Shown here: piece by piece, positions 31 through 54,846 of the stretch | Layout: every line of letters begins with the position of its first letter | Numbering within the stretch: position 1 is the first letter of the stretch | Assembly: GCA_017449495.1 (NCBI GenBank) | Contig: JAFTFO010000010.1 | Coordinates: 1-64,000 of the forward strand | Direction: 5' to 3' | DNA from: Prevotella sp. | Lineage (GTDB): Bacteria > Bacteroidota > Bacteroidia > Bacteroidales > Bacteroidaceae | Length of the DNA: 64,000 nt | The notes under the pieces: generated by a model | Databases searched by the model: none | Told to the model about the DNA's origin: nothing | Seen by the model: only the letters and a program-made list of their open reading frames with translations | Program-made: the position numbers and the translations under genes

Positions 31-118
31 GGGAGAAAGGTGCCTGGTTTCCGGGAGAAAGGGCTAACCTTTCTGGCAGAAAGGTTGCTGGTTTCTCGCA
101 GTAAGGGCTATCCTTTCC
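31..118. repeat. 22-bp-period palindromic array, four units
   Basis: Four tandem units start at 31, 53, 75 and 97, exactly 22 bp apart. Each opens with a variant of GGGAGAAAGG and ends in TTTC plus C or T. Units 1 and 3 agree at 18 of 22 bases and units 2 and 4 at 17 of 22, so two unit types alternate. Unit 2 is itself a palindrome (AGAAAGG...CCTTTCT). It matches the build, but not the sequence, of four other arrays in this window. Function is unknown. It is not a CRISPR array, because there are no unique spacers. Confidence 0.75.
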
Positions 119-20042: not shown

Positions 20043-20126
20043 GTCGAATTACCGTTATTTGATGTTTAAAATGCGTGATTTGTCGCATTTTAAACATAAA
20101 ATCACGTATTTTAAACATTTTGCAGG
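20043..20126. repeat. 21-bp-period palindromic array upstream of the hybrid regulator
   Basis: Units begin at 20043, 20064, 20085 and 20106. ATGTTTAAAATGCG (20062-20075) pairs perfectly with CGCATTTTAAACAT (20084-20097), a 14-bp stem. The longer left arm 20062-20081 also pairs at 19 of 20 bases with 20099-20118. The two foldings exclude each other. The array ends about 50 bp before a -7-like box TAATTTTG (20179-20186) for the next gene, so it could act as operator or leader switch. No gene is seen in 19949-20214. Confidence 0.6.
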
Positions 20127-21935: not shown

Positions 21936-23297
21936 ATGGCTAAACAGAAGAAATTTATCCTCCAAGAGAGTGAGATCCCAACACAGTGGTACAACATCCA
22001 GGCCGACATGCCTAACAAGCCCATGCCGCCCATTCACCCGGCTACCAAGCAGCCCCTCGGCGTCGACGACCTGGCGCACATCTTCCCCCGCGAGTGCTGC
22101 GTGCAGGAACTCGACACAGAACACGCCTGGATCGACATCCCCGAAGACGTGCTCGAGAAGTACAAATACTATCGTTCCACCCCGCTGGTACGAGCCTACG
22201 CCCTCGAAGAGGCCCTCGGCACACCCGCCCACATCTATTTCAAGAATGAGTCGACCAACCCCCTTGGATCACATAAGATCAACTCTGCCCTCCCCCAGTG
22301 CTACTACGCCAAGCAGGAAGGCACCACGAACGTGACCACCGAGACAGGTGCCGGTCAGTGGGGCGCAGCCCTCAGCTACGCTGCAAAGATATACGGCCTC
22401 GATTGTGCCGTCTATCAGGTGAAGATCACCATGCAGCAGAAGCCCTACCGCTCTTCGATCATGCGCACCTTCGGTGCTGTCGTGGAAGGCTCACCCTCGA
22501 TGTCTACCCGTGCCGGTAAGGATATCTTGACAAAGGACCCCACCCACAGCGGTTCTCTCGGCACCGCCATCTCCGAAGCTGTCGAGTTGGCCACCACGAC
22601 GCCAAACTGTAAGTACACCCTCGGCTCCGTGCTCAACCACGTAGGCCTTCACCAGACCATCATCGGCCTCGAGGCTGAAAAGCAGATGGCCATGGCCGGC
22701 GAGTATCCCGATATCGTGATCGGCTGCTTCGGCGGAGGTTCCAACTTCGGCGGCATCGCCTTCCCCTTCATGCGTCACAACCTGAAGGACGGCAAGACCA
22801 CCGAGTTCATCGCTGCCGAGCCCGACAGCTGCCCGAAGCTCACCCGCGGACAGTTCCGCTACGACTTCGGCGACGAGGCTGGCTACACCCCGCTGCTGCC
22901 GATGTACACCCTGGGTCACAATTTCAAGCCCTCGAACATCCACGCTGGCGGTCTGCGCTACCACGGTGCAGGCATGATCATCTCCCAACTCATCAAGGAT
23001 GGTCTGATGCACGGTGTCGACATTCCTCAGCTCGAGACCTTCGAGGCCGGCATGCTCTTCTCACAGACAGAGGGCATCATCCCCGCCCCCGAGAGCTGTC
23101 ACGCCATTGCCGCTACCATCCGCGAGGCCAAGAAGTGCAAGGAGACGGGCGAGGAGAAGGTCATCCTCTTTAACCTCTCTGGTCATGGCCTGATTGACAT
23201 GCCATCTTACGAAGCTTTCATCAAGGGTGACCTCCAGAACTACACCGTCACCGACGAGATGATTGCCGAGAACCTCGCAGAACTCGACAAGCAGTAA
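21936..23297 (+). CDS. trpB: TrpB-like pyridoxal-phosphate enzyme (TrpB2)
   Basis: 453 residues, longer than TrpB1 (about 400), with the N-terminal extension typical of TrpB2. PLP Lys114 in GSHKINSA, TETGAGQWG, and the phosphate-binding loop FGGGSN are clear. It would make tryptophan from indole and serine; TrpB2 enzymes often work without TrpA as indole-salvage enzymes. No other trp gene is nearby, which fits that role. It lies 32 nt after the hybrid regulator and may be co-transcribed with it. A strong terminator follows. Confidence 0.93.
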   Translation: MAKQKKFILQESEIPTQWYNIQADMPNKPMPPIHPATKQPLGVDDLAHIFPRECCVQELDTEHAWIDIPEDVLEKYKYYRSTPLVRAYALEEALGTPAHIYFKNESTNPLGSHKINSALPQCYYAKQEGTTNVTTETGAGQWGAALSYAAKIYGLDCAVYQVKITMQQKPYRSSIMRTFGAVVEGSPSMSTRAGKDILTKDPTHSGSLGTAISEAVELATTTPNCKYTLGSVLNHVGLHQTIIGLEAEKQMAMAGEYPDIVIGCFGGGSNFGGIAFPFMRHNLKDGKTTEFIAAEPDSCPKLTRGQFRYDFGDEAGYTPLLPMYTLGHNFKPSNIHAGGLRYHGAGMIISQLIKDGLMHGVDIPQLETFEAGMLFSQTEGIIPAPESCHAIAATIREAKKCKETGEEKVILFNLSGHGLIDMPSYEAFIKGDLQNYTVTDEMIAENLAELDKQ

Positions 23298-23321: not shown

Positions 23322-23358
23322 AAGCGGCTGTGTCAAACCCCGACACAGCCGCTTTTCT
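23322..23358 (+). terminator. Intrinsic terminator after trpB
   Basis: AAGCGGCTGTGTC and GACACAGCCGCTT form a perfect 13-bp stem, loop AAACCCC, followed by TTCTTC. Confidence 0.9.
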
Positions 23359-23404
23359 TCGTTACCGATGATCATAAATGGCCCTTGAAAATTTTGTCGT
23401 TAGC

Positions 23405-23609
23405 GTTTGAGTATACGCGAACAACCGTTTGCGTATACTCAAACGGTTGTTCGAGCCAAGGCAAACGGTAGAAAGGATAGGGTAAAACCCCTGTGATGAT
23501 GCCTGTTTATCCCTATAAACTGCCATCACTATCCCTGTTAACAGGCATCACCAACAACGTTACAAGGCATCAGCAACAACATAAGACGGCGTCTGTAACA
23601 ACGATAGTG
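23405..23609. repeat. Long 22-bp-period array, about nine units
   Basis: Units at 23405, 23427 and 23449 begin GTTTG or GTTCG and end CAAAC or CGAAC plus 4 nt. The 15-bp arms 23404-23418 and 23431-23445 pair perfectly, and so do the overlapping 14-bp arms 23418-23431 and 23440-23453, giving two mutually exclusive hairpins. The 22-bp rhythm then continues with changed sequence: TATCCCT at 23508 and 23530; GGCATCA at 23544 and 23566, with GGCGTCT at 23588. Adjacent units share 13-17 of 22 bases, except one weak step near 23478-23500. No gene is seen in 23298-23721. It lies between the trpB terminator and a toxin-antitoxin promoter. Confidence 0.75.
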
Positions 23610-23670: not shown

Positions 23671-23702
23671 TTTGGAAGTATGGATATTTCTTCCTATCTT
23701 TG
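23671..23702 (+). promoter_or_regulatory. Promoter of the first toxin-antitoxin pair
   Basis: TTTG at 23671-23674, 20-bp gap, TATCTTTG at 23695-23702. It overlaps an in-frame ATG at 23680, which therefore cannot be the start; translation should begin at 23722. Confidence 0.8.
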
Positions 23703-38825: not shown

Positions 38826-39192
38826 TAACGTCACTTTCAGCATTAACAAACTGATAATCAAGACGATAATAGGTGATGTTAAGTCTTAAATAATATCACC
38901 TTAACATCACTTTCATACCGATTTCGGTATATTTCAACGTCAATGGCTCTTGCTTAGGATAGTAGTTTGTACTTGTTTAGATAGGGTAAACTGACAGTTT
39001 ACCCTGTCTAAACTGTCAGTTTGAGGCATCATTACGGTTTACAACTGCCTTGTTTTCAATTGGTTAATAGCAATCTAAGCATATTTTAGTGCCATTTTCA
39101 GATAAAAGTGACGTTATGGTGACGTTTGAAAACACATAACATCACCGACTAAATACGTGTTTTACAGACACTTAGACAGCAAAGTGACGTTA
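38826..39192. repeat. Seven GTGAYGTTA boxes upstream of the VirE-type gene
   Basis: Copies lie at 38826 (-), 38873 (+), 38902 (-), 39108 (+), 39119 (+, ending in T), 39137 (-) and 39184 (+). Three share a longer core AAAGTGACGTTAT (38825-38837 minus, 39105-39117, 39181-39193). The pair 38873-38883 and 38900-38910 also forms an 11-bp hairpin. The 511-bp space 38712-39222 has no gene. Box density beside a primase/helicase-like gene recalls iterons of a replication origin or operators of its regulator. Confidence 0.6.
38975..39040. repeat. 22-bp-period palindromic array
   Basis: Units start GTTT at 38975, 38997 and 39019, each 22 bp apart; the first two share 15 of 22 bases, the third is degenerate. 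The first two also form a near-perfect palindrome centred on 38994: arms 38975-38993 and 38995-39013 match at 18 of 19. AAACTGACAGTTT and AAACTGTCAGTTT recur 22 bp apart. Same build as the arrays at 31, 20043, 23405 and 54570, with different sequence. Confidence 0.7.
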
Positions 39193-51483: not shown

Positions 51484-51531
51484 CTTTCATTATTTCATTT
51501 TCTCAATTTCTCATTCTTTCATTATTTCATT
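51484..51531. repeat. 16-bp direct repeat in low-complexity DNA
   Basis: CTTTCATTATTTCATT occurs exactly at 51484-51499 and 51516-51531, separated by TTCTCAATTTCTCATT-type sequence. It overlaps the 3' end of the symporter gene. It belongs to the same class of purine-rich (on the other strand) micro-repeats seen inside several genes here. Confidence 0.6.
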
Positions 51532-54153: not shown

Positions 54154-54846
54154 TTCGTGCGAGATATGATCTCTGGCGGATTCCTCTGGCGCGGGTCGAA
54201 CAGGAATGAAATCGTCTCGTCAAATTCTGCTATGGACTGAGGGAGATTTGGATTGTCTCTTCTGGAGATAATATCCGGGAAATTCATAATTCCCGTCCAT
54301 TTTTCCCTCGGCTGACTTCCCAAAAAGTAATCACGGCGCTCGTAGATGTTTTTTCGCCAGCTCTATTCCTTGGCATATCGTGATGACGGTCCTTGTTTAT
54401 TAATATCTTTCTTTCAGCCGAGGCGTAATTGGCTGAGAGTCAGAGGATACTGCTGAAGGAAAACTCGAAGTCAGAATGGCAGAGGCAACCTACGACTAAC
54501 CCAGACGCAGAATAGCTGATGTGCGACTAAGCGGTGGATAAAGCAAGACGAAACATCAAGTAACGGATTGTTTGACCTTGGTCAAACAATTGACTGACGG
54601 CCGTCAAACGATCGTTTGACCAAGGTCAAACAATGACAACCTTGGCGGTAAAGGCCTTTCAGAAGGCTTTAAAATCAGGGAAAACGAATCGTTGAGGGCA
54701 AGACGGAATTCTGCATGAGTCGGGAGAAGCCTTGAGACCTTGAGGCTTCGGCTATTGCTGCAGAGATGCGCTGACGAGTTTTTCCTTTCAGCTGAAAACG
54801 CTCAGTATAAGCAAGTTGCGCCTCGACTGAAAGGACAAGTCAACTA
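54154..54846. other. Gene-poor region with inverted repeats
   Basis: No convincing gene. On the minus strand 54141-54359 stays open and reads NIYERRDYF, then EKWTGIMNFPDIISRRDN and FDETISFLFDPRQRN, protein-like but unrecognised and without a good start; it overlaps the end of the beta-barrel pseudogene. Inverted 15-mers CTTTCAGCCGAGGCG (54411-54425) and CGCCTCGACTGAAAG (54819-54833), 14 of 15 paired, bound a 423-bp segment that contains the 22-bp array at 54570. No target-site duplication is seen at its ends. Confidence 0.4.
54570..54635. repeat. 22-bp-period palindromic array, three units
   Basis: Units start at 54570, 54592 and 54614. Each fits GTTTGAC-N4-GTCAAAC plus a 4-nt spacer; units 1 and 3 share 19 of 22 bases, unit 2 matches unit 1 at 14. 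GTCAAAC recurs at 54581, 54603 and 54625. Between units a further perfect 18-bp palindrome spans 54603-54620, so several hairpins compete. It is the cleanest of the five arrays. Confidence 0.8.

Follow-up and report, generated by a model that had tools for sequence, protein, structure and literature searches.

Dispersed palindromic arrays with a common 22-bp period and species-specific sequences in Prevotella genomes

Analysis of a 64,000-nucleotide stretch of Prevotella sp. (assembly GCA_017449495.1, contig JAFTFO010000010.1, positions 1 to 64,000; hereafter the window) and of related genomes revealed that the intergenic arrays of 22-bp-spaced units found there belong to dispersed repeat families with species-specific sequences, which goes beyond the preliminary description of phased arrays with unrelated sequences. 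The families are dispersed, each is amplified in a species-specific manner, one 22-bp period is common to families of unrelated sequence, and within the same gap a block is present in some genomes and absent from others. The preferred reading, to which a probability of about 0.5 was assigned, regards the arrays as interspersed elements similar to REPINs or MITEs, copied in blocks, with palindromes and spacing that are read by a putative dimeric DNA-binding protein of changing specificity.

The focal array and other loci in the window

The longest array, at 23405-23609, was composed of nine units in a 22-bp register, as had been proposed, with identities between neighbouring units of 15, 14, 7, 10, 11, 13, 19 and 15 of 22 bases, the 7/22 step corresponding to the weak step noted before. 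Identity at lag 22 was 0.58 (106/183), as compared to 0.17-0.29 at lags 16-21 and 23-28, and the lag-22 score was reached by 0 of 2000 dinucleotide shuffles. Features are given here on the + strand. Sequence reading and lag analysis identified three palindromic 22-bp units of the form GTTYG-N8-CRAAC plus 4 bp (23405..23470), and copy alignment together with a dyad test identified six further units forming a tail that keeps the 22-bp register and has weak or no palindromy (23471..23602; CCCT-ended, then GTTANNAGGCATCANNAACAAC). An AT-rich leader, CCCTTGAAAATTTTGTCGTTAGC, is located on the 5' side of the repeat (23382..23404) and has a similar form in most copies of the family, here called family A, according to the alignment of 20 copies. 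By reading only, a terminator-like hairpin (AAGCGGCTGTGTC...GACACAGCCGCTT then TTCTT; 23322..23359) lies after the upstream ORF and before the array, and downstream of the array is a sequence (TTTG ... TATCTTTG; 23671..23702) which resembles a Bacteroidetes-type promoter and would serve the next ORF.

Three of the four other loci listed in the preliminary description were confirmed as lag-22 arrays, each with a score reached by 0/2000 shuffles. The array at 31..118 (+; GGGAGAAAGGTGGC...; lag-22 identity 0.62) belongs to family B, which is dispersed in the genome and was matched at seven places at E below 1e-11, its own place included. The array at 38975..39040 (+; ACTGACAGTTTACCC...; 0.57) has three units and was assigned by eye as H-like. 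The array at 54570..54635 (+; 0.64) has three units built on GTTTGAC-N4-GTCAAAC and is located inside a dispersed family D element of 334 bp (54401..54734, +), of which a second full copy (94%) lies at C5:32225-32558, whereas C37 contains only a part of 220 bp (95%). The fourth locus, 20043-20126, was not upheld as a lag-22 array: its identity at lag 22 was 0.31, a value reached by 39% of shuffles, and its best lag was 21 (0.51). Inverted copies of GTTTAAAATGCG and CGCATTTTAAAC were observed at this locus, between two ORFs. In the Rfam scan of the window, the tmRNA gene at 1749-2147 on the minus strand (RF00023) alone reached the gathering score, and the arrays had no Rfam match.

One period in unrelated families

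The lag-22 excess in intergenic DNA, on which the preliminary description had staked its case, was found in a 1.167-Mb sample of the same genome composed of contigs of known extent through matches and one 20-kb piece, with intergenic DNA defined by a crude gene-calling script. At a threshold of 29/44 identity, 50 intergenic segments were detected at lag 22 and two in coding DNA, a density which is an upper-side estimate because the contigs were chosen via matches. The intergenic counts at lags 17-21 were 1, 0, 0, 4 and 3, and those at lags 23-29 were 0, 2, 0, 1, 0, 0 and 0; among the remaining lags from 14 to 33, the highest were 16 (11 segments), 14 (4) and 30 (3), which count against the preferred reading. 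In the intergenic autocorrelation, lag 22 (0.2912) was the top of lags 5-66, the other lags between 19 and 25 ranged from 0.261 to 0.281, and lags 44 and 66 were also raised (0.2764 and 0.2760, respectively). Coding DNA of the same sample had no lag-22 peak. Lags 7-9 were nearly as high intergenically (0.285-0.288) and represent a different class of short repeats.

Other periodic repeats were observed in this genome. Period-7 tandem arrays accounted for 53 intergenic and 66 coding segments and period-8 arrays for 27 and 12, respectively; they are mostly AT-rich and of several sequences (AATTGAT, GTGAAGA, GTAAAAAG), with an example in the window at 51484-51531, and lag 16 goes with the separate AT-rich period-8 class. 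Heptamer repeats are the most abundant intergenic tandem repeats in many prokaryotes, according to one survey (PMC6344855). Period-9 repeats similar to CACAGATT and AATCTGTG flank family B arrays (L029 1374-1500, L030).

Sorted by eye, the arrays of the genome fell into about eight families, mostly formed by palindromes of 15-18 bp and a short spacer, and units of families B and C met in register within one array. Arrays were present in 35 of 210 gaps of at least 120 bp and in 35 of 129 gaps of at least 200 bp in the sampled half of the genome. Neighbouring units were more alike than distant ones (0.66, 0.58, 0.50 and 0.46 at distances 1-4), a gradient biased by the detection, which needs neighbour similarity.

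Family A was found at 20 dispersed places in the assembly (2.24 Mb, 68% complete), that is, 23405-23609 and 19 others at 81-92% identity. Most of the 20 aligned copies share the AT-rich leader and the in-register tail units after the palindromic units, and some differ in unit number by whole 22-bp steps; AT-rich leaders are also present at arrays of other species. When 17 copies were compared to the window copy, 2814 aligned positions contained 406 substitutions, and the gaps were one of 22 bp and one compensating 1+1 pair. The 134 pairwise alignments together had 71 gaps; 15 of these measured 22 bp, 26 a single base pair and one 66 bp, so that the phase is not perfectly strict, a point against the preferred reading. 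This analysis left out two of the 20 copies (without the leader motif), and its local alignments also extend into unrelated ends. Period-11 arrays of locus-specific words (CGCGCCCCTAT, GACTACTNNNN) were noted at C28:41333, C23:80378, C3:79521 and C5:69156, three of the four just upstream of family A copies.

Named genomes contain the family A core pattern in at least 105 stretches, and each of the 80 listed ones belongs to a record of Prevotella, Xylanibacter, Prevotellaceae, Bacteroidaceae or Bacteroidales. Family A-type matches were obtained, for example, in Xylanibacter ruminicola Ga6B6 and Prevotella sp. tf2-5, which are cultured rumen strains. At 80 family A loci of other species, the commonest number of palindromic units was three (42/80). 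Family A tails across species (76 of the 80 loci) showed identities of 0.394 at lag 22, 0.311 at lag 23, 0.287 at lag 21 and 0.23-0.28 at the other lags from 16 to 29; the phase is well kept, though not perfectly strict, and this counts against the preferred reading. Palindromes of the GGTCACAGCTGTGACC / GGTTACAGCTGTAACC kind with repeated half-sites were observed after family A tails in many other genomes (L071, L087, L088, L097 and others). The largest recurrent cluster of neighbours at the 80 loci was an HU-like DNA-binding gene, so named from sequence reading, which lies 72-181 bp upstream of the array in five of them (L075, L077, L098, L101, L127), at sites that are partly orthologous.

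A family of another genome, G121, was found at 40 scored places there, its own place included (122 candidates), with 0-6 matches in each of eight other genomes. Twenty-two of its arrays were read, comprising 20 of the 26 best-scoring among the 40 BLAST places and two met earlier, with some contig-end places skipped; the sample favours intact arrays since it was taken from top BLAST matches. Four intact copies of a 17-bp palindrome were present in 21 of the 22 arrays and five in the remaining one, and the spacing between intact palindromes was 22 bp in 67 of 67 cases. Several arrays had a degenerate half-copy further upstream, and T runs bordered the arrays. In the 20 alignable arrays (the five-unit array and one cut by a contig end were left out), departures from the consensus numbered 4 among 1200 core cells and 88 among 420 spacer cells. 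Six of the 21 columns counted as spacer are in fact part of the 17-bp palindrome and invariant, so that the true spacers differ in 88 of 300 cells (about 29%). This constancy of spacing alongside divergence of the spacer letters supports the earlier suggestion of selection on spacing. Spacers 2 and 3 each had a consensus of their own, a further upstream stretch (TTTCTTTACATTTCGGAC-like) was common to 13 of the 22 arrays, one of two downstream stretches was common to 3 and 4 of the 22, and most pairs matched over about 100 bp only (median of 190 pairs), with 15 matching over at least 130 bp. The G121 arrays thus read as apparent copies of four-unit blocks with position-specific spacers.

The breadth of the lag-22 excess over other genomes was uneven and was counted against the preferred reading: it was clear in two genomes of the same genus and weak in a third. 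In genome G016, 391 kb contained 16 intergenic segments at lag 22, the majority with a half-site similar to TTGACGCA, versus five for all other lags from 14 to 33 together. Genome G024 had five in 200 kb, of one family by eye, and three intergenic segments at the other lags together. The four lag-22 segments in 192 kb of G069 comprised a low-complexity one and three in a single gap, and the excess there is weak given five segments at lag 14 and three at lag 21. Four other families of the order, each represented by 80 kb of one genome (320 kb in all), had no lag-22 segments. In 534 kb surrounding family A loci in other genomes, after the family A arrays had been masked, four intergenic segments were counted at lag 22, four at lag 14 and three at lag 21.

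The gap between uvrC and dtd (genes named by Pfam) was compared across relatives. Of 30 loci fetched upstream of dtd, 27 were readable, including that of the genome under study, and three had no usable dtd start. A lag-22 array preceded dtd in 12 of 27 genomes at a threshold of at least 27/44 and in 9 of 27 at a threshold of at least 29/44, with 14 segments at lag 22 versus 10 summed over 13 other lags. The arrays included several unrelated sequences, namely AAATTCASTGAATTT in the genome under study, GTCCGAAGCCTTCGGAC in G121, TTGCTACTATTAATRCTAGCAA in G025 (to which the unit of G112 is related), TTTCCCTGGGCAGGGAAA in G098 and GTAAATCAAATTGATTTAC in G035; the unit of G007 had no obvious palindrome, and those of G105 and G079 look mutually related. 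The gap was only 30-58 bp in G118, G086, G030 and G104, and uvrC of the sister species G018 nearly reaches the dtd promoter. These short gaps indicate that some genomes carry a block in the space from the uvrC stop to the dtd promoter and others lack one; the G018 state may be either an ancestral empty site or a deletion. In the empty-site comparison at C33:49695, the neighbour gene had no clean ortholog. The uvrC-dtd gap was rejected as an array hot spot, since 9/27 at the stricter threshold is similar to the background of 35/129 gaps of at least 200 bp.

Candidate explanations

According to the preferred reading, the copied block would consist of about three to six units, mostly palindromes 15-18 bp long whose centres are separated by 22 bp, and would in some cases include a leader and a tail. 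Blocks would be mobile and copied to new sites, and each species would amplify one or several families of its own, as a result of which the sequence would turn over and the geometry would stay. A putative dimeric sequence-specific protein would occupy adjacent palindromes, each dimer taking up 22 bp or about two turns of the helix, and this binding would keep both palindromes and spacing; the putative binder may be a mobilising recombinase or a host protein that the element depends on. A constant geometry in unrelated letters, palindromes that hardly vary and spacers fixed in length but free in sequence would be the footprint expected of side-by-side dimer binding to B-DNA, and dispersed blocks with species-specific families are what a mobile non-autonomous repeat would be expected to leave. 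Among the options of the preliminary description, phased protein binding on DNA fits best, with the protein itself putative. The presence of about eight families in one genome counts against the preferred reading, since several specificities or a loose one would be needed.

Concerning the boundaries and origin of the blocks, neither terminal inverted repeats nor duplicated targets were obvious in duplicate pairs read by eye (including L005/L006, L008/L058 and L036/L038). Viral contigs contained no match to exact degenerate patterns of families A, C and E, of a G016 family or of the G121 family, and there was no match to family A or the G121 family in the plasmid collection; a phage or plasmid origin was rejected for the families searched. 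Three weak matches of family A to Vibrio phage sequence annotated as terminase appear fortuitous.

The arrays could instead be phased operators of a chromosome-organising or regulatory protein, kept for the benefit of the host, in which case copying would only spread new sequences. The conserved palindromes and geometry would fit this explanation, as would the genomic position: divergent gaps were under-represented (4 observed versus 8.4 expected, P=0.028, uncorrected, one of four orientations tested), and in 22 tandem gaps the median distance of the arrays was 108 bp from the upstream stop and 204 bp from the next start. The sites themselves are not conserved. In the 520 bp after the ortholog of the gene at 21936-23297, some stretches being shorter, an array was present in only 1 of 29 relatives and was of another family, a comparison which is a weak conservation test because the downstream genes of the relatives are various. 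The sequences also differ between species, and no Pfam family occurred in more than two of 60 flanking proteins (nine further flanks, crossing stretch borders, were left out), so that the 60 neighbour genes had no common function and a regulon was rejected. An explanation by host function therefore seems rather unlikely.

The dyad signal was above a column-permutation control (P<=0.05) in 55% of 78 arrays. The palindromic form described earlier thus holds for the early units at 23405-23470 and does not extend to every array: about 45% of the 78 had no dyad above control, the tail half of the focal array among them, and this counts against the preferred reading. Palindromes of families D (9/9) and E (12/12) occurred only with a neighbour 22 or 44 bp away; palindrome matches without a matching neighbour were found in families C (2/6), F (3/13), G (3/12) and H (3/10), which is a further point against it.

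RNA hairpin chains, acting as post-transcriptional terminators or mRNA-stabilising 3' structures, were another option of the preliminary description. Folding was more stable than in shuffles, with a mean z of about -3.7 on both strands, and in most of the G121 arrays read the final palindrome is followed by CTTTTT. In family A across species, G-T mismatches exceeded A-C mismatches in palindromic units (106 versus 60) and in the first tail unit (52 versus 38), much of it from one position, and this excess was counted as a point for RNA and against the preferred reading. In the genome under study, however, there was no strand preference: G-T and A-C mismatches were 30 and 30 in tandem-oriented palindromic arrays and 23 and 17 in other arrays, and the folding z of 33 tandem arrays was -3.95 for the sense and -3.98 for the antisense strand. 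The lack of strand bias favours DNA over RNA. Furthermore, hairpins need no exact spacing and the window array already sits after a terminator-like hairpin, so we consider hairpin chains improbable.

Movement of the arrays as REP/REPIN elements by a Y1 (RAYT) transposase would account for their resemblance to REPs as species-specific extragenic palindromes. A 174-aa Y1 transposase gene of the same genome (L283 1405-1929, G000:C6) adjoins arrays of families B and C, and two of three Y1 loci in G016 have a lag-22 array nearby. This association is weak elsewhere. Among 30 Y1 loci read, lag-22 segments were found near three (L283, L287 and L291, of which L287 has repeats at many lags), and 3 of 11 Y1 loci in six genomes had a lag-22 array in the fetched flanks, as compared to about 1.4 expected by a rough calculation from array density. 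The genome G024, one contig and 99% complete, had 0 matches to PF01797 at E<=0.001 in its whole sequence, yet five arrays in 200 kb, and six other genomes searched had one to three matches each. A Y1 transposase is thus unlikely to be required. By eye, no tetranucleotide was common to the spacers, and a GTAG- or CGTC-type tag at one end of the palindrome was not observed. Mobilisation by a Y1 enzyme is therefore quite improbable. The Y1 gene at L283 is flanked by GGGGACAGGCACYGTGTGAG repeats, perhaps its own REP, and a similar GGGACAGGCACGATG was observed near an array in L058.

Plain minisatellites, formed by replication slippage with 22 as a historical accident, are very improbable. The greater likeness of neighbouring units and the gain and loss of 22-bp units speak for them; the same period in families and species of unrelated sequence, the four units with position-specific spacers in 21 of the 22 G121 arrays and the dispersed copies speak against them. 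Likewise, the repeated unit duplication proposed earlier explains at most part of the pattern, given that in G121 four-unit blocks appear to have been copied.

Known systems and biological meaning

The nearest known kind is BrickBuilt of Porphyromonas gingivalis, a species of the same order as Prevotella, followed by REP/REPIN elements, and the arrays are neither by the features tested. BrickBuilt is a MITE with a 23-nt minisatellite, a single family with 19 dispersed copies in one species; a copy has between 1 and 22.8 units, with insertions/deletions of 0-6% within them (PMC4596501). The arrays resemble BrickBuilt in being intergenic and dispersed (19 BrickBuilt copies, 20 of family A) and in having a leader, tandem units and a tail, an organisation found in family A and only partly in G121. 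They are unlike it in the period of 22 bp, in the several unrelated families and species, in being mostly palindromic and in having about three to six units per block. The REPs that have been surveyed have a GTAG or CGTC tag and are associated with RAYTs (PMC3733652; also PMC3116915 and PMC3686654 on REP/BIME, REPIN and RAYT). The arrays are like REP/BIME/REPIN in being short extragenic palindromes of species-specific classes, with many copies and often clustered, and unlike REP/REPIN in having no fixed tag seen by eye, a constant 22-bp phase and one array genome without a Y1 match.

Plasmid iterons are direct repeats of about 17-22 bp bound by initiators, and the transposases of Tn7 and Mu have 22-bp binding sites. 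The arrays are similar to these as repeats about two helical turns apart that would be bound by protein, whereas iterons and Tn7 or Mu sites are not palindromic families dispersed over chromosomes. CRISPR arrays have identical repeats, unique spacers of about 25-40 bp and cas genes, and were rejected on spacer length, which is 4-7 bp here. In eukaryotic satellite DNA, monomer length is conserved while the sequence turns over between species; unlike those long arrays, the Prevotella arrays are bacterial and form short dispersed blocks.

A bolder proposal, tentative and possible rather than probable, is that of a bacterial satellite-DNA system, in which a fast-diverging putative DNA-binding factor and dispersed palindrome blocks would co-evolve, the letters being replaced in each species and the strict 22-bp geometry staying. 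The factor would be either a new, non-Y1 transposition system or a chromosomal protein for which the sites compete.

Full-text searches of open-licence papers listed no description of 22-bp arrays in Prevotella, yet they occupy 35 of 129 gaps of at least 200 bp in the sampled half of the genome. If the arrays are a mobile element, their spread as an interspersed repeat would be independent of the kind of Y1 transposase that serves REPs. A geometry that is conserved while the sequence is free points strongly to a putative DNA-binding protein, and the array DNA would provide a direct handle with which to fish the binding factor, whose specificity could then be compared between species with different palindromes.
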